Of a stretch of DNA of 64,000 bases, positions 2,451 to 34,470 are shown piece after piece. Below the pieces are notes generated by a model. It made no database searches. It saw nothing but the letters and a program-made list of their open reading frames with translations, and was not told the origin of the DNA. The position numbers were made by a program, and so were the translations under genes. Source of the DNA: Rhodospirillales bacterium. Its GTDB lineage: Bacteria > Pseudomonadota > Alphaproteobacteria > SP197. Position 1 is the stretch's first letter; the number at the start of each line of letters is the position of its first letter. The stretch spans positions 1 to 64,000 of the forward strand of contig JACONG010000006.1 in assembly GCA_014323865.1 (NCBI GenBank), read 5' to 3'.

Positions 2451-2590
2451 CGATGGCTCCTGACCGAAACGGGAGAAGCGCTGGCTTGACCGGCCGTGGG
2501 GAAAGGGTCAGCATCGCCTCGGGCGCGGACTGTAGCAACGGACGGCCCCCCACGAAAGCGTTGCTCACCAACGAACGCATGCGGACAGTC

Positions 2591-2809
2591 ATGAAGGAAA
2601 TCATGCGCACCAACGACCTCGTGTCGATTTCCTTCGCCCAGGCCCTGCTGAAGGATGCTGACATCGCGCACGACGTCTTCGATCAGAACATGAGCAGCCT
2701 CGAGGGTGGCGTGATCGCGATCCAGCGTCGCCTCGTCGTGCTCGACGAAGATGCTGTTGAGGCGCGCCGCATCCTCAGTGATGCCGGCCTTGATGTCCGC
2801 GACGTCTGA
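2591..2809 (+). CDS. DUF2007 putative signal-transducing protein
   Basis: 72-residue small protein whose MKEIMRTND-VSISFAQALL start and MSSLEGGV-AIQRRLVVLDED core match the DUF2007 family, a small soluble domain related to the PII fold. The start at 2591 was chosen because MKEIMRTND aligns with the family N-terminus; an ATG at 2579 is an alternative. Its 3' end overlaps the start of the next gene by 17 nt, so the two are probably translationally coupled. No biochemical function is established. Confidence 0.75.
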   Translation: MKEIMRTNDLVSISFAQALLKDADIAHDVFDQNMSSLEGGVIAIQRRLVVLDEDAVEARRILSDAGLDVRDV

Positions 2810-3536
2810 CGACAGCTTCACACTTCTGGGTGGCAGGGTCCGCATGGCCGCGATGGGGTGCGGCCTGAAACCCACGACCGATGCCGTGATGCTTGCCGCA
2901 GCCGCCGATGTCGGTCCGGGGGCGTCCGTGTTTGATGCCGGTTGCGGCGCGGGGGCGGTGGCCCTCTGCCTGCTGGCGCGACTGCCTGACCTTCGGGTCG
3001 CCGGGATGGAGCGTGAACCCGAACTGGCAGCTCTTGCCGCGCGCAATGTGGCGCTGAACGGAGTCGAAGGCTTGTTGTCGATCGTGTGCGGGGATCTGGC
3101 TGATGGCGACCTCTGCCCGGGTCCCTTCGATGCCGTCGTGACCAATCCGCCATATCTCGAAGAACGGGCGGTCCGTGTACCCTCCGATCACCTGCGGGCG
3201 GCGGCGATGGTCGAGACCATGCCGCTCGGCGACTGGGTCGCCGCCTGCATCCGCCGTGTGCGGACGGGCGGGGTCCTCTATCTAGTCCACCGGCCCGAAC
3301 GACGGCGCGAGATTGAGGACACGCTTGTCGGGTTGGGCTGCGGGGCGGCTGTCATCCCGCTCTTGCCACGGGCAGGGGCCCGGGAGCCCGAACGCATTCT
3401 CGTTCGTGCCACCGTCACTGCTGCACAGGACGGCGTGATCGATGCATCGCCCATGGTTCTCCACGAATCGGGCGGGCGGTACACGGTGCATGCGGAGGCC
3501 GTGTTGCGGGATGGCGAACCGATCGATTGGTTCTGA
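2793..3536 (+). CDS. TrmN6-like tRNA1(Val) A37 N6-methyltransferase
   Basis: 247-residue class I SAM-dependent methyltransferase. The SAM-binding motif VFDAGCGAGAV is at residues 46-56 and the amino-methyltransferase motif NPPY at 118-121, as in the YfiC/TrmN6 group that methylates A37 of tRNA-Val. The KPTTDAVMLAAA segment near residue 26 is typical of this group. The start overlaps the DUF2007 gene. A DNA or protein N-methyltransferase role is a weaker alternative. Confidence 0.8.
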   Translation: MSATSDDSFTLLGGRVRMAAMGCGLKPTTDAVMLAAAADVGPGASVFDAGCGAGAVALCLLARLPDLRVAGMEREPELAALAARNVALNGVEGLLSIVCGDLADGDLCPGPFDAVVTNPPYLEERAVRVPSDHLRAAAMVETMPLGDWVAACIRRVRTGGVLYLVHRPERRREIEDTLVGLGCGAAVIPLLPRAGAREPERILVRATVTAAQDGVIDASPMVLHESGGRYTVHAEAVLRDGEPIDWF

Positions 3537-3583
3537 TTGGTCCAAGTGAACACGATTTGGTTCACTTTTGACCAAATTGACCA
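3537..3583 (+). promoter_or_regulatory. inverted repeat upstream of the serine-cycle operon
   Basis: The left arm TTGGTCCAAGTGAAC starts directly after the TrmN6 stop (3537-3551) and is mirrored at 3560-3575 (GTTCACTTTTGACCAA) with one bulge and one mismatch; a further TTGACCA follows at 3577-3583. TGGT...ACCA half-sites resemble operators of FCD-type GntR regulators (LldR/PdhR class). The element lies about 100 nt before sga. It could instead be a terminator for the upstream gene, but there is no clear U-run. Confidence 0.45.
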
Positions 3584-3680
3584 GAACTTCGGTGAATTCG
3601 AGAACATTCCCGCGCATGAGAATCGGGTAAATCCCGCGTTCTTTGGCGAGTTTTTTCACCTCTCCTGGGAGTCCCGCGCG

Positions 3681-4874
3681 ATGCTTGGCCAGAACCCGAT
3701 CTTCATTCCCGGCCCGACCAATATCCCCGATCGCATTCGCAAGGCGATCAATCTTCCCATGGAAGACATGCGCGCACCGGATTTTCCGGAGTTCGTGCAT
3801 CCGCTGCTCGCCGACCTCAAGACCATCTTCCGCATGGCCGACGGCGAGGTCTTCGTCTTCCCGTCGTCGGGCACCGGTGGCTGGGAAGCCGCGCTGACCA
3901 ACACACTCAGCCCCGGTGACAAGGTGCTGAACACGCGGCTGGGCCAGTTTTCGCTGCTCTGGTCGATGATGTGCGAGCGCCTCGGCCTCGAGGTCGTCAA
4001 CTGCGATGTGACCTGGGGTGAGGGTGTGCCGGTCAAGCGTTACGCCGAGATCCTGGCCGCTGATACCAGGCACGAGATCAAGGCCGTCCTAGTCTGCCAC
4101 AACGAGACTGCCACGGGCGTCACCAGCGATGTCGCCGCGGTGCGTGAAGCCATGGACGCCTGCGGCCATCCCGCGCTACTCTTGGTCGACGGCATCAGCT
4201 CGATCGCCTCGATCGACTTCCGCATGGCCGAGTGGGGCGTTGACATCGCCGTCGCCGGCTCCCAGAAGGGTTTCATGCTGCCCGCCGGCCTCGCCATGGT
4301 CGCGGTCAGCGAGAAGGCGCTCGAAGCCGGCAAATCGGCCAAGCTGCCGCGCTGCTACTTCGCCTTCGACTGGATGCTCGACGTCAACCGTCAGGGCTAC
4401 TTCCCCTACACGCCGGCCACGACGCTGCTGCGCGGCCTGCGCGAATCGATCGACATGCTGACCGAGGAAGGTCTTGAGAACGTCTTCGCCCGCCATCACC
4501 GCATGGCCGAAGGTGTTCGGCGTGCCGTCGACGCATGGGGCCTCTCGCTCTGCGCTGCCGAGCCGCGCTGGTACTCCGACACCGTGAGCGCGATTTGTGT
4601 GCCCGGGGGCGTCGACTCCGGTGCTGTCGTGAAGGTGGCCTATGAGACCTATGGTCTCTCGCTCGGCGTCGGCCTGACCCAGGTCGCGGGCAAGGTCTTC
4701 CGCATCGGCCATCTCGGCCAAGTGACGGACCTGATGCTCGTTTCGGCCATCGCGGGCGCCGAAATGGCCATGAATGATGCCGGTGTCAGCATTGCGTTCG
4801 GCTCCGGTGTGGCAGCCGCGCAGGCGTGGTACGCCGAAACGTCGTCGCTGGCGCTTGCCGACGCCGCCGTGTAG
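3681..4874 (+). CDS. sga: serine-glyoxylate aminotransferase
   Basis: 397-residue PLP-dependent class V aminotransferase that converts serine + glyoxylate to hydroxypyruvate + glycine in the serine cycle. It opens with the typical [14 protein letters not shown], has [11 protein letters not shown] (residues 62-72) for PLP phosphate binding, [11 protein letters not shown] near 167-177, and the Schiff-base lysine at 196 in [12 protein letters not shown]. The frame is open upstream, but [14 protein letters not shown] at 3681 matches family starts. mtkA and mtkB follow, which supports serine-cycle use rather than purine or photorespiratory use. Confidence 0.9.
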
Positions 4875-27370: not shown

Positions 27371-27892
27371 TCAGGCGGTTAGCGCCGCGACCACCTCATC
27401 GAACACGGCATCAGCGCGCTCATGCATCTCGGCCTCCGTCAGGGGCTGGATCGGATGCTTCACATAGATGGCGCCCGCGTTGAAACCATGGATTTCACGC
27501 CATGCCTTGACCCCGGACTCGAACTCCTCCGAGAACAGGGCGACGGCGGGAAGGCCCTTCCGATCAATCTCCAGCATGTCCTGCAGACTGCACGACGTAC
27601 AAGAGCCTCAATCGGCCAGCGCCTCGACGACGACGTCGCAGCGTTCGGTGATCTCAGCCGTAACGGCGTCGGAGGCCTTCTTGGCGAAGGTCTCCTTGGC
27701 GAACCGCTCGACCTTGATGCCGAGTTCACCAAAGCGCGCCTCAAGCCGGTCAAGCAGCAGATCGCCCTGCCGCTTGGTGATGTCGAGCAATCCGACGGTC
27801 AGACCGTCGAGCGACGCCGGTGGCGCCTTGCGCTCGCGTATCCCGCCCGACCGTTCCGAGGTCGGATCGAGCAGGGTCGTGCTGTGCGTCAT
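27371..27892 (-). CDS. UGSC-family selenoprotein with in-frame UGA (Sec95)
   Basis: Read through a TGA at 27610-27608, the frame encodes 173 residues: 94 before and 78 after the stop. The junction reads CDVVVEALAD-U-GSCTSCSLQ, the defining motif of the UGSC (seleno)protein family, whose other members have Cys or Sec at that position. Upstream ASLDGLTVGLLDI and downstream IDRKGLPAVALFSEEF and VKHPIQPL are family-like, and codon use and GC content are continuous across the TGA. A SECIS-like hairpin follows. The start overlaps the upstream gene's stop (ATGA), so the two are translationally coupled. Family function is unknown; a redox role via U-G-S-C-T-S-C is inference. A simple nonsense mutation is the alternative, but it would have to fall exactly at the conserved Sec/Cys position. 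Confidence 0.88.
27578..27596 (-). promoter_or_regulatory. candidate bacterial SECIS hairpin
   Basis: The mRNA segment GUCGUGCA-GUC-UGCAGGAC forms an 8-bp stem with one G-G mismatch and a GUC apical loop. The loop starts 19 nt after the UGA. From memory, E. coli fdhF has UGCA-GGUC-UGCA, with the loop 18 nt after its UGA, so both the core and the spacing match what SelB recognises. The stem lies inside the coding sequence, as bacterial SECIS elements do. Confidence 0.7.
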
Positions 27893-29307
27893 GGCACAAT
27901 CTCCCTCGTTATGGGTTGCGACCCGCGCGGACCGCTGGCCCAGCCATGGATGATAGTGGAGAATAGCCCGGCGTTGCTACCGGTTCGAACCAACTGGAGG
28001 TCGCCGGGGCCGAATTTCGGAATCAGCGTGCCGTCCGTCGAACGCACCGTGGCACCGGCTTCGACATCGGCTTCGTTGCGCCCTGTGCGATCCATCAGAG
28101 CGTAGAAGATGCGGGCGCGATCCCACCCGGCCGCGCGGTAGACCGACCAGTACTCGCCCGACAGCACCAGCATGGCACCCTGGCCACCACCGGCATCCTG
28201 CGGATGGCCGAAGGCATTGAGTGTCATGGCGATGTTGTCGGTCAGCGCGTCCGGTTCGCGGGCGTTTTCCATGTTGTGGATGCTGGTGCCGCAGAATCCG
28301 AACACGGTCACGGCGGACTTGCCCGGCTCGATGCCGCGTGACTGTGCCAGGGACTGCCAGGCGTCATCCGATTCATCCTCAGCGAAACACAGGCCGAACT
28401 TGCCTGGGTGGCCGAAGGTGGAGCGGTCCGTGCCGCCAGGCATGGCGCCGCCGAGATTGATCACGAGAAGCTGGAGGGCTCGCGCGATCGTGGCGTTCGC
28501 ACGGTTGCCGTGGCCCAGGGCATTGTGGCCGGTGTTCATGCCGATGCGCTTGGCCACAGGGCCGTTCACGACCACGCAGACACCGGCGCCCATCGTGGTC
28601 GACATCAGGCCTTGCCAGGCAAAATCCGGATCCATCGCGGCATCGAGCGCGGCCAACACCACGGGGAGGTGCTCGGGTCGGCATCCGGCCATCACGGCAT
28701 TGATGGCAGCTTTCTCGACTGTGCAGGTCGCACCCGAGGGCGGAATGATACCCAGAACCTCATCGGGCTTGTGGCCTGTGCCGTCGAGCATGCGCAAAAC
28801 GCGGGCCGGTGTCGGTGTCACGACCGGAAGGCCGTCGGTCCAGCCCTGGTCAAAGGCGTACTCCATCGGATCGTCGGGGAAGTCGACGATGACCTTGCAC
28901 GCGCTGAGTCCGGTGTCGCCGAACCGGGCCTGTAGTTCCTCGGCCATGCCGGAGGCGACCGACAGCGATCCGCAGCCGGGCCGTTCCTCGGGTAAGTCGA
29001 TGCCGAGATCGTTGACGCCGGTCAGGTTCTGCCATTCGCCGCGATGCCAGCCGATGACCCTACCCGTCTCGCGGCCGCCCTCACGTCGTATCAGCGTCGG
29101 CACGATGTCGGTTTCAAGCGCGAACGAGGCCTGGAGATCACGATCGTCGATCACGGCAAGCCCGCGCGGAAACTCCGGATTGTCCTGGGAGTAGATCGCC
29201 TTGAGATCGCCCAGCCGCTTCAGTTCGGCCGCCACCGGCGCGATGAGCTGACAGGTCGGACAATCCTCCTTGAGGACAAGTGCGAGGCCGTCTGCGGGCA
29301 GGTCCAT
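27889..29307 (-). CDS. thioredoxin-fold protein, UGSC partner
   Basis: 472 residues. The N-terminal about 90 residues form a thioredoxin-like domain with a CPTC motif (VLKEDCPTCQLIAPVAAEL). A long second domain follows, with FDQGWTDGLPVVTPTPARV, IIPPSGATCTVEKAAINAVM and MNTGHNALGHGNRANATI, then AVTVFGFCGTSIHN. The second domain is of unknown function; homologues occur next to UGSC proteins as I recall. The stop overlaps the UGSC start (ATGA), implying a two-protein system. CPTC could reduce the selenenylsulfide of the UGSC protein; that is inference. Confidence 0.7.
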   Translation of the reverse strand: MDLPADGLALVLKEDCPTCQLIAPVAAELKRLGDLKAIYSQDNPEFPRGLAVIDDRDLQASFALETDIVPTLIRREGGRETGRVIGWHRGEWQNLTGVNDLGIDLPEERPGCGSLSVASGMAEELQARFGDTGLSACKVIVDFPDDPMEYAFDQGWTDGLPVVTPTPARVLRMLDGTGHKPDEVLGIIPPSGATCTVEKAAINAVMAGCRPEHLPVVLAALDAAMDPDFAWQGLMSTTMGAGVCVVVNGPVAKRIGMNTGHNALGHGNRANATIARALQLLVINLGGAMPGGTDRSTFGHPGKFGLCFAEDESDDAWQSLAQSRGIEPGKSAVTVFGFCGTSIHNMENAREPDALTDNIAMTLNAFGHPQDAGGGQGAMLVLSGEYWSVYRAAGWDRARIFYALMDRTGRNEADVEAGATVRSTDGTLIPKFGPGDLQLVRTGSNAGLFSTIIHGWASGPRGSQPITREIVP

Positions 29308-29390: not shown

Positions 29391-29741
29391 ATGTCCGATA
29401 TTCAACGCCTTGAGCCTGCCGCACTCTTCAGCGGCGCCGTCATCCACGGCGACACCGTCTATCTCTCCGGCAAGGTCGCGTCTGACAGCTCGCTTGACGT
29501 GAAGGCCCAGACCCAGGACATTCTCGACCAGATCGATGCCACACTGGCGGCCTGCGGCACCGACAAGTCGAAGCTGCTGACCGTGATGATCTGGCTCACC
29601 GACATGGGCACCTGGGCCGAGATGAATGAGGTCTACACGCCGTGGATCGATCCAGACAACAAGCCCTGCCGCGCCTGCGTTGGCGCGTCGCTCGCGGCAA
29701 CGGAATTCCTCGTCGAGATCCAGTGCGTCGCCGCGCGTTAA
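29391..29741 (+). CDS. RidA/YjgF family protein
   Basis: 116 residues; starts LEPAALFSGAVIHGDTVYLS, contains a DILDQIDATLAACGTDKSKL helix, and ends CRACVGASLAATEFLVEIQC with the conserved Arg and E of the trimer-interface pocket. RidA proteins deaminate reactive enamine/imine intermediates from PLP enzymes. Divergent from the UGSC operon with 83 nt between starts, which must hold both promoters. Ends within the 3' end of the SDR remnant. Confidence 0.88.
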   Translation: MSDIQRLEPAALFSGAVIHGDTVYLSGKVASDSSLDVKAQTQDILDQIDATLAACGTDKSKLLTVMIWLTDMGTWAEMNEVYTPWIDPDNKPCRACVGASLAATEFLVEIQCVAAR

Positions 29742-30085
29742 CGGCAGGCGTATGAGCCGCCGTCGACTTCGAGCAGGGCACCGGTCAGGAACTTCTGATT
29801 GGGATCGGGGAGGAAGCAGCCGGCGTTGTTGACCAGGATGTCGAGGCCGCTCATCCCGTCGATCGCGCCGGCGACCAGCGCCCGGCATGCCGCTGCCCTT
29901 CCGATATCGCCGGGGGCTGAGACCATGTTCTCACCGCCGAGTTCTGCGATGGTCGCCGCCACGTCGTCGCCCTTTCGGCCATTGATCGCGACCCGTGCGC
30001 CGTGCTCCAGGAATGCCTTGGCAGCGGCCTTGCCGATACCGCGGGTCGAACCGGTAATCGGAACGCGTTTGCCCGAGAAGCTCAT
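29738..30085 (-). pseudogene. short-chain dehydrogenase with internal deletion
   Basis: 115 residues instead of about 250. The N-terminal Rossmann part is intact (PITGSTRGIGKAAAKAFLEH, then LDILVNNAG), but after CFLPDPNQ it jumps directly to the C-terminal KFLTGALLEVDGG motif. The catalytic Ser-Tyr-x-x-x-Lys region is missing. Reading frame is preserved, so a short product may be made but cannot be an active dehydrogenase. It is the last gene of an operon with carbonic-anhydrase-like and phytanoyl-dioxygenase genes. Confidence 0.75.
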
Positions 30086-32270: not shown

Positions 32271-32776
32271 GTCCTTCCTTCCGCGACGACTTCACAAAGC
32301 CAATCCTTGAGCAGCAGGGCGCCGGGCTCGGTGCAGGGAGCAAGGGTTTCGCAGGTCACCTTGCTGCACACCGGAATCGCACGATCCCTGGTCAGGCGGG
32401 AGCCCTTCGGTCCGGATCGACATGATGAGGTGAATATCGATGCCGGGGTGGCGATGGCGAAATCCCACGAGCCGCGGCGTGAGCCAGAGCACGGCGAACG
32501 AGGTGGTCGCGCGCACCGTGATGGTCTCGGCATCGGCCGTGTCGAAAATGCCTGTGGTTGCCGAGGTTGGATCCTCGAACGCCTTGCGCACCGTTGGCAG
32601 ACAGGCGTGGCCGAGACGTTCGAACAGGGGAAACCCCGGCGCTCCTCAAGGTTGCGAACCCGGGTGCTGATCGCCTTCGGCGTTCGTCCGGGTCCCCCGG
32701 ATGTACCGGCGAGGCTCTCGCGGCGGGCGAAGACCTCGAGGGCGCGTAGCCAGTTGGCGGGCGGCAACGGGTGCAT
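32267..32776 (-). pseudogene. LysR-family regulator (GcvA-like), frameshifted and truncated
   Basis: The start is intact, with a GGAGG site and ATG at 32776 encoding LPPANWLRALEVFARRESLA. TPKAISTRVRNLEERRGFP continues the helix-turn-helix in the same frame. From about 32590 the effector domain lies in another frame (RATTSFAVLWLTPRLVGFRH, HPGIDIHLIMS). A final frame change ends near 32267. Only about 170 of about 300 codons remain. It is divergent from the MttB-like gene, which it probably once regulated. Confidence 0.7.
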
Positions 32777-32913
32777 CGCGACCTCCTCCTCGTCTGGACA
32801 AAAGTTTTCCTGTATCTCGGCCACAACAGATTTCCTTCGATGTCCTGTCATATCCGCGCGATGCTCTCTGCCCCCATGAGGAGGATCGCGTGGCGCAGGA
32901 AGTGGAGAGCCCG

Positions 32914-34470
32914 ATGGAATCCGGTTCGAGCGGGTCGACATCGAACGGTTCGCGACGTGCTGGCGGTCGTGCGGCACGCCAAGCGCGCCGACGCAGCGAT
33001 CCCGGCCGGGCACCTGCCATCGTTCGGCGCACGATTCCCGTCTACGACCTGCTCGACGACGATGCGCTGGCGGCGATCGAGGCCCAGGCCGACTGGATTC
33101 TGAAGGAGATCGGGATCGAGTTCCGGGGCGACGACGAGGCCCTGGCGCTGTTCCGCGAGGCCGGTTGCAGCATCGACGGTTGCCGGGTGCGCTTCGATCC
33201 CGGTCATGCCACGGCGCTGGCGGCCACTGCGCCCGGCGAATTCCGCATGGAGAGCAGGGACCCGGGCCGATCAATCGTGCTGGGCGGTGACCATGTCGTC
33301 TTCATGCCGGGCTACGGCTCGCCCTTTGTCACCGATCTCGACCGGGGACGGCGTTACGCGACGCTGGAGGACTTCGAGGCCTTCGTGAAGCTGAGTTTCA
33401 TGACGCCATGGCTGCACCACGGCAGCGGAACCGTGTGCGAGCCGGTCGACATCCCGGTCAACAAGCGTCACCTCGACATGGTCTATGCCCATCTGCGCTG
33501 GTCGACCAAGCCGTTCATGGGCGGTGTGACGGCGCCCGATCGCGCCCGGGACTCGATCGAGATGGCGCGGATCGCGTTCGGCGCAGACCATGTAGACGAG
33601 AAATGCGTCATCCAGGCCAACATCAACGTCAACTCGCCGCTGGTCTACGACGGTGTCATGTCGTCGGCCCTGCGCATCTACGCCGAGGCGGGCCAGAGCA
33701 CGGCGATCTCGCCGGCCATCTTCGGTGGCGCGATGGGGCCGGTGACCCAGCCGGCGGTTCTGGCCCAGACCCATGCGGAAATCATCGCCGGGATCGCGCT
33801 GAGCCAGCTCGTGCGGCCGGGCACGCCGGTGGTCTACGGCAACTTCAACACCACGATGAATCTGAAGACCGGCGCGCTGACCTTCGGGACGCCCGAGGCC
33901 AATCTTTCGAACATGGCCTTCGCTCAACTGGGGCGCAGGCTGGGCGTACCGGTGCGTTGCGGCGGTCAGCTCACGGCATCCAATGCGGCTGACGGGCTCG
34001 CCATGCAGGAGTCGACCTCGTTCATGCTGGCCGCAATCCTGGCGGGCTCGAACTTCGTCTATCACGCAGCAGGCTGGCTCGAGGGCGGGCTGACCATGAG
34101 TTACGAGAAGTTCGTCATGGACCTCGACCACTGCGGCATGATGCTGCGCATGATCGCGGGGCTCGAGGTCAACGAAGCGGCATTTGCGAAGGACGCCTAT
34201 GAGGAGGCGGGGCCCGGCCAGGCCTTCTTCGGCACACAGCACACGCTGGCGAACTTCGAGACCGCCAACTATGTCTCCGAGTTGCTCGACGCAGGGCCTT
34301 ACGAGACCTGGATGGAAAACGGTGCGCCCGACGCGGCGCAGCGCGCCAATGGCCGCTGGAAGCAGATGCTGGCCGACTACGAAGCGCCTGCAATCGACCC
34401 GGCTGTCGACGAAGAACTCAGGGATTTCATGACACGGCGCAAGGCCGCCATGCCGGACCAATGGTACTGA
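32914..34470 (+). CDS. MttB-like (trimethylamine/betaine methyltransferase family) protein
   Basis: 518 residues. IPVYDLLDDDALAAIEAQAD, ILKEIGIEFRGDDEALALF, VFMPGYGSPFVTDLDRGRRY and CGGQLTASNAADGLAMQEST are characteristic of the MttB superfamily of corrinoid-protein methyltransferases. There is no in-frame amber codon, so this is a non-pyrrolysine member, the group that includes glycine-betaine methyltransferases. A cognate corrinoid protein gene is not in the window. The ATG at 32914 follows a GTGGAGAG site; the first about 40 residues are Arg/Ser-rich and poorly conserved. Confidence 0.85.
   Translation: MESGSSGSTSNGSRRAGGRAARQARRRSDPGRAPAIVRRTIPVYDLLDDDALAAIEAQADWILKEIGIEFRGDDEALALFREAGCSIDGCRVRFDPGHATALAATAPGEFRMESRDPGRSIVLGGDHVVFMPGYGSPFVTDLDRGRRYATLEDFEAFVKLSFMTPWLHHGSGTVCEPVDIPVNKRHLDMVYAHLRWSTKPFMGGVTAPDRARDSIEMARIAFGADHVDEKCVIQANINVNSPLVYDGVMSSALRIYAEAGQSTAISPAIFGGAMGPVTQPAVLAQTHAEIIAGIALSQLVRPGTPVVYGNFNTTMNLKTGALTFGTPEANLSNMAFAQLGRRLGVPVRCGGQLTASNAADGLAMQESTSFMLAAILAGSNFVYHAAGWLEGGLTMSYEKFVMDLDHCGMMLRMIAGLEVNEAAFAKDAYEEAGPGQAFFGTQHTLANFETANYVSELLDAGPYETWMENGAPDAAQRANGRWKQMLADYEAPAIDPAVDEELRDFMTRRKAAMPDQWY

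Follow-up and report, generated by a model that had tools for sequence, protein, structure and literature searches.

A UGSC-family selenoprotein gene of a Rhodospirillales bacterium and its constant, previously undescribed partner: candidate subunits of a selenoreductase

The window, i.e., the whole stretch of 64,000 nucleotides analysed here, carries on its minus strand two open reading frames in the same frame, one of 94 amino acids at positions 27608–27892 and the other of 68 amino acids, counted from its first ATG, at positions 27371–27577, the sole separator of the two being a TGA triplet at 27610–27608. Reading through this triplet yields a single gene at 27371–27892, ending with the stop codon TGA at 27371–27373, whose product consists of 173 residues with selenocysteine 95 (Sec95) within the sequence D-U-G-S-C-T-S-C. 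A previous sequence-only reading of this DNA had proposed precisely this arrangement and had named UGSC as the family; the frame and the read-through translation bear out the former, while the latter is confirmed by profile searches, in which residues 29–172 of the read-through protein match NCBIfam NF041046 (“UGSC family (seleno)protein”) with 132.4 bits, the cut-off being 125, and residues 7–172 match Pfam PF24696 (“UGSC”) with 142.5 bits, the cut-off being 25. Since both alignments cross the TGA, the family match covers both sides of it and is far beyond chance. Furthermore, a UGSC gene with exactly one in-frame TGA is found in all nine genomes of the same genus, and the segment 27371–27892 truly encodes a new representative of an established selenoprotein family. 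Its description as “hidden” is correct insofar as it appears as two fragmentary ORFs, but the NCBI annotation library does contain a UGSC model, so that the gene is visible to pipelines making use of NF041046.

The assignment of the TGA at 27608–27610 (minus strand) to Sec95 is based on these same-genus genomes and on the codons of the homologues. To prevent bias, the homologues were sought by means of a query alignment whose Sec column had been masked (X); among the best 80 named homologous loci the codon in this column is TGA in 77 and TGT or TGC in three, so that the expectation of either Sec or Cys at this position holds throughout. The genome from which the window derives (2.82 Mb, 18 contigs, 99.9% complete) also contains the machinery that the earlier reading had suggested looking for: selD (227778–228671, 286 bits), tRNA-Sec (229876–229966, 75.1 bits, anticodon TCA by ARAGORN), selB (230189–232048, 427 bits) and selA (232075–233421, 566 bits) are clustered within ~6 kb on contig 4. 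Outside the lineage, tRNA-Sec was found in 11 of 13 Sec-form genomes, with a best score of at least 67 bits, whereas it was absent from all six Cys-form genomes tested, in which the best match did not exceed 52 bits and was a tRNA-Ser according to ARAGORN. The two Sec-form genomes in which the tRNA-Sec search gave no match (G454 and G456) are metagenome or draft assemblies, and the gene is perhaps missing because these drafts are incomplete. The Cys forms of UGSC in Bacteroidota were too rare to contribute further sequences, and one Cys-form gene (L043/L046, genome G330), split into two frames with a TGA located elsewhere in a genome without tRNA-Sec, is probably a pseudogene; L043 was left out of the Sec counts. 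Two other genes of the window's own genome contain an in-frame TGA: a GrdB/PrdB-like gene beside selD (G000:C4:226395–227231; L183, L212), with the TGA within T-P-V-U-P-L-C, which is likely a second selenoprotein of this organism, and another weak GrdB/PrdB-like match (74 bits) at G000:C16:91029–91544, with one such codon.

Bacterial SECIS elements consist of a hairpin with a G-containing loop located ~16–37 nt behind the UGA. Fold z-scores, codon constraint and pair counts point to a SECIS-like stem-loop that starts from the UGA of the UGSC gene and spans 27562–27613 (minus strand), with an apical hairpin UGCA-GUC-UGCA at 27582–27592 whose conserved loop GU occupies 27587–27588; the loop G sits 20 nt behind the UGA, in keeping with the above distance, and the apical hairpin resembles the element of E. 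coli fdhF. Downstream of the UGA the fold z-score is −2.7 when 54 nt are folded and −4.0 with 76 nt. Base-pair covariation is uninformative in this element, four of the seven pairs being invariant, and because the pairs hardly vary the choice of codons was used as a test instead. In 113 distinct Sec genes, which are related by descent and whose counts are thus non-independent events, every Ser specified by the seventh codon downstream of the UGA is written AGT (85/85) and every Cys TGT (28/28), and the hairpin loop therefore reads GU in all of them. In the five Cys-form genes the same codon is TGC, TCG or TCT, never AGT or TGT, and in neighbouring genes AGT accounts for 7.6% of the Ser codons. 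The fixed synonymous loop codon points to selection acting on the RNA as well as on the protein, and the presence of a SECIS hairpin at the UGSC TGA can be regarded as supported at the codon level.

These data also bear on the possibility that the TGA is a true stop and the locus a pseudogene or the product of a sequencing error. Nothing but the interruption of the frame by the TGA speaks for this explanation, and its probability is practically nil: the TGA recurring at the same codon in the homologues, its single occurrence in every same-genus genome, the presence of tRNA-Sec, selA, selB and selD and the fixed loop codon lead, for practical purposes, to its rejection.

The start of the UGSC gene overlaps by four bases (ATGA, 27889–27892) the stop of an upstream gene located at 27889–29307 of the same strand. 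This gene, the more novel part of the locus, was overlooked in the sequence-only reading. It encodes 472 residues comprising a thioredoxin-like domain (residues 1–100, 29008–29307), with a CPTC motif at 29251–29262, and an undescribed domain of ~340 residues (residues ~130–472, 27892–28920) that is also found alone beside UGSC paralogues; between the two lies Cys112 (TGC, 28972–28974) within R-P-G-C-G-S. The identity of the N-terminal domain is indicated by both a profile match with PDB thioredoxins (E = 4e-4) and Foldseek, which returned thioredoxins with a probability of 1.00. On the other hand, the partner as a whole matched no family of Pfam or NCBIfam above cut-off, and its large domain, although highly conserved and modelled with confidence (pLDDT of the partner model 92.9), found no confident structural match by fold; the matches with class I fumarase and cyclic amide hydrolase were weak, with low TM scores, and were not used. 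No homology between the partner and UGSC was detected.

A homologue of the partner lies upstream, on the same strand, at 78 of the 80 UGSC loci, and the spacing between the two genes is −4 in 50 of 77 loci. Of the two loci lacking it, one is interrupted by the end of a contig and the other (L095) is a real exception; conversely, at L145 the partner is present with no UGSC gene within 1.5 kb. By this comparison of loci, the two genes constitute a conserved two-gene unit, of which the partner half was previously undescribed. The pair is also present in the genomes of the cultured relatives Reyranella aquatilis and Noviherbaspirillum galbum.

The partner itself appears to contain selenium in some bacteria. 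When Sec is written as Cys in the partner alignment, column 112 is an invariant Cys; the corresponding codon is TGA in nine loci, which belong to Burkholderiales or were drawn from the order of one of their number, and in all nine the frame runs on to full length. At the loop of the hairpin that can be drawn behind this TGA the Gly codon is GGG in 9/9 TGA forms, compared to 12/82 in the Cys forms, and eight of the nine possess CUCG-A-GCC-CGGGGU-GGC-CGAG or a closely similar hairpin; the ninth (L144) has a different hairpin with the GGG loop at the same place. The folding energy behind the partner TGA is not exceptional with respect to the Cys forms, so that support comes from the hairpin and the codon choice. 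The tree of the partners requires three changes of state between Sec and Cys, with L144 standing apart and L057, a Cys form, nested among the Sec forms; this history can be read as Sec being gained twice and lost once, the direction not being derived from the tree. Of the three genomes with TGA partners that were examined for tRNA-Sec, two (L066 and L106) contain it and in one (L116) none was found, while at five of the remaining six loci a TGA-type UGSC gene lies beside the partner. A TAG found inside the partner gene at L113:8857–8859 (W-*-P-G-C-G-S), at a non-conserved place and with close relatives intact, is an error or the mark of a pseudogene, and was left out of the count of Sec forms. 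Since none of the family libraries searched contains a model of the partner, annotation probably splits its Sec forms into two fragments; Table 1 of a 2026 review (119 families; PMC13188914) lists UGSC and, within that table, nothing matching the partner by name or motif.

The window's genome contains a single UGSC–partner pair. The partner's large domain is encountered without thioredoxin as well, many Burkholderiales genomes having several copies of it, and at each of 14 such loci (L147–L160) a UGSC paralogue with TGA lies beside it. Among 20 larger regions, 18 contain TctC receptors (PF03401), and some contain CoA-transferases, MmgE/PrpD, short-chain dehydrogenases, a 2-hydroxyacid dehydrogenase or arylmalonate-decarboxylase-like proteins. 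This vicinity of the paralogous pairs to carboxylate-binding proteins and organic-acid enzymes is a hint, but only a hint, at organic acids as substrates, TctC being common in Burkholderiales. Variants of the arrangement are found at L178 and L180, where one UGSC gene accompanies two tandem partner-domain genes, suggesting a three-gene version of the pair, and at L165, where a very divergent UGSC paralogue (2501–2944, plus strand; TGA, 51 bits, motif C-U-G-S-C-T-P) lies close to a partner-domain gene of its own (3089–3913, plus strand). Within the window, and apart from the pair, a short-chain dehydrogenase of 115 residues (29738–30085, minus strand) lacks, without a shift of frame, ~120 internal codons that its relatives L048 and L049 possess, which is due either to a deletion or to an assembly fault, while a full-length MttB-family methyltransferase (32701–34470, plus strand) has no in-frame TAG and does not reach the cut-off of the pyrrolysine-type model.

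Immediately behind the thioredoxin-type pair, five loci (L056, L063, L067, L070 and L086) carry selA and selB; at a further locus, L122, selB and then selA come after the pair. This proximity would be expected if the pair served selenium metabolism, for instance in the reduction of a selenium compound or its delivery to SelD, but it is also expected for any selenoprotein gene moving together with its machinery. In the window's genome the pair and the sel cluster are on different contigs, Cys forms persist in genomes devoid of tRNA-Sec and Burkholderiales have several paralogous pairs next to TctC-type binding proteins, so that we deem a role of this kind rather improbable.

As to the UGSC protein itself, its AF2 model (pLDDT 93.5) has flavodoxin-like and related alpha/beta proteins as nearest structures and locates Sec95 at the N-terminal end of a helix; the predicted fold is Rossmann/flavodoxin-like. 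The thioredoxin fold assumed for UGSC in work on the marine selenoproteome (PMC2398784) is not supported by this model, the thioredoxin-like part of the pair being the N-terminal domain of the partner. The corresponding functional premise, namely that UGSC is a general thiol-disulfide redox protein of the thioredoxin type and the partner merely its reductase, with no conversion of a substrate, draws on the UxxC motif of UGSC and on the thioredoxin domain of the partner; it conflicts with the confident model, with the loss of the second Cys of T-S-C in paralogues (UGSCSSG, UGSCTSW and UGACTSW), and with both the high conservation of the partner's large domain and the location of paralogous pairs in organic-acid gene clusters, which are more like what one would expect of a substrate-using enzyme. 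We hold this explanation to be unlikely, if somewhat less so than a role in selenium metabolism.

A different relationship emerges from comparisons with reductase families. When 24 diverse UGSC proteins were searched, their main recurring non-self matches were five models of GrdB, GrdF, GrdH and PrdB, namely TIGR01917, TIGR01918, NF040794, TIGR04483 and NF040795, with a best E of 4.9e-4, TIGR00777 (AhpD) appearing twice with E of 0.05, and one UGSC paralogue directly matches the reductase B families for sarcosine and glycine. A profile–profile alignment with GrdB/PrdB-like proteins superimposes the Sec residues of the two sides and likewise their Cys residues (P = 8.6e-4, hhalign probability 24%); its score of 30.7 lies above the maximum of 22.6 reached by 60 block-shuffled controls. 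The outcome was similar for a smaller set, in which one out of 100 column shuffles nearly equalled the real score. UGSC is not a member of these families, as its highest score, 18.8 bits, falls short of their cut-offs (65 to 800), and for the partner neither Pfam nor NCBIfam gave a match of the GrdE/PrdA kind, i.e., the pyruvoyl-bearing second subunit. A distant kinship between UGSC and the Sec domain of GrdB/PrdB is probable, the link being suggestive rather than proof and weak in absolute terms (hhalign 24%, HMMER E near 1e-3).

Taken as a whole, the explanation that we favour, with fair though far from complete confidence, is that the UGSC selenoprotein and its partner form a two-subunit selenoreductase fed by thioredoxin. 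UGSC would arise when SelB directs read-through at the UGA (27610–27608), aided by the hairpin just downstream, an origin that the comparative data support, and would be translated together with the upstream partner gene. In light of their constant adjacency and of the four-base overlap, the two proteins most likely belong to a single enzyme as its subunits. The selenolate of Sec95 would attack or reduce a small organic substrate at the interface with the partner's large domain and would be left as a selenenyl sulfide with either Cys98 or the partner's Cys112; the latter residue, for which some Burkholderiales have Sec, would together with the CPTC-bearing thioredoxin domain supply the electrons restoring Sec95, these electrons presumably coming from free thioredoxin in the paralogous pairs lacking this domain. 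Sec insertion, the SECIS element, the constant pairing, the thioredoxin domain and the Cys112/Sec exchange are the elements of this scheme supported by comparison.

UGSC, an as yet uncharacterised family, is among the commonest selenoprotein families in surface waters, with 255 sequences in an ocean survey (PMC2398784); the constant partner, the predicted fold and the probable distant relation to reductases now make the question of its function testable. The UGSC protein alone is already known; what is new, in that it was not found in the literature examined, is the pair, the Sec forms of the partner and the GrdB/PrdB link. The surroundings of the locus thus contribute an undescribed partner family, which would add a selenoprotein to the catalogue, and a mechanism amenable to testing. 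The broader proposition that UGSC and partner represent a hitherto unrecognised, GrdB/PrdB-related class of selenoreductases with two subunits, distributed across Proteobacteria with several pairs per genome in Burkholderiales, where the partner would be a further selenoprotein family having Sec in place of the relay Cys112, stands in our judgement at about even chances.

Among known systems, the Global Ocean Sampling data (PMC2398784) contain, in fusion with UGSC, an Unknown_1 domain that is likewise conserved and UGSC-linked and might correspond to the partner. The VPGUxxT thioredoxin-like selenoprotein (NF041383) is thioredoxin-like and has a P-G-U motif resembling the P-G-U-G-S of the partner, but the Sec-form partner L066 gave no match to the NF041383 model at E up to 10. 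With the UGSC family (NF041046/PF24696) the window's protein shares a full-length match above both cut-offs, the U-G-S-C motif and the Sec/Cys exchange in the same column, and itself differs in nothing. Finally, GrdB, GrdF, GrdH and PrdB (PF07355, TIGR01917/01918/04483) are enzymes of fermenting clostridia, whereas the hosts of the UGSC pair are mostly Proteobacteria, and UGSC, with its 173 residues, falls far below their cut-offs; like UGSC, however, they bear a Sec-x-x-Cys motif that follows a strand and opens a helix, and these reductases function with a thioredoxin-type reductant and a second subunit, a likeness to the UGSC pair.
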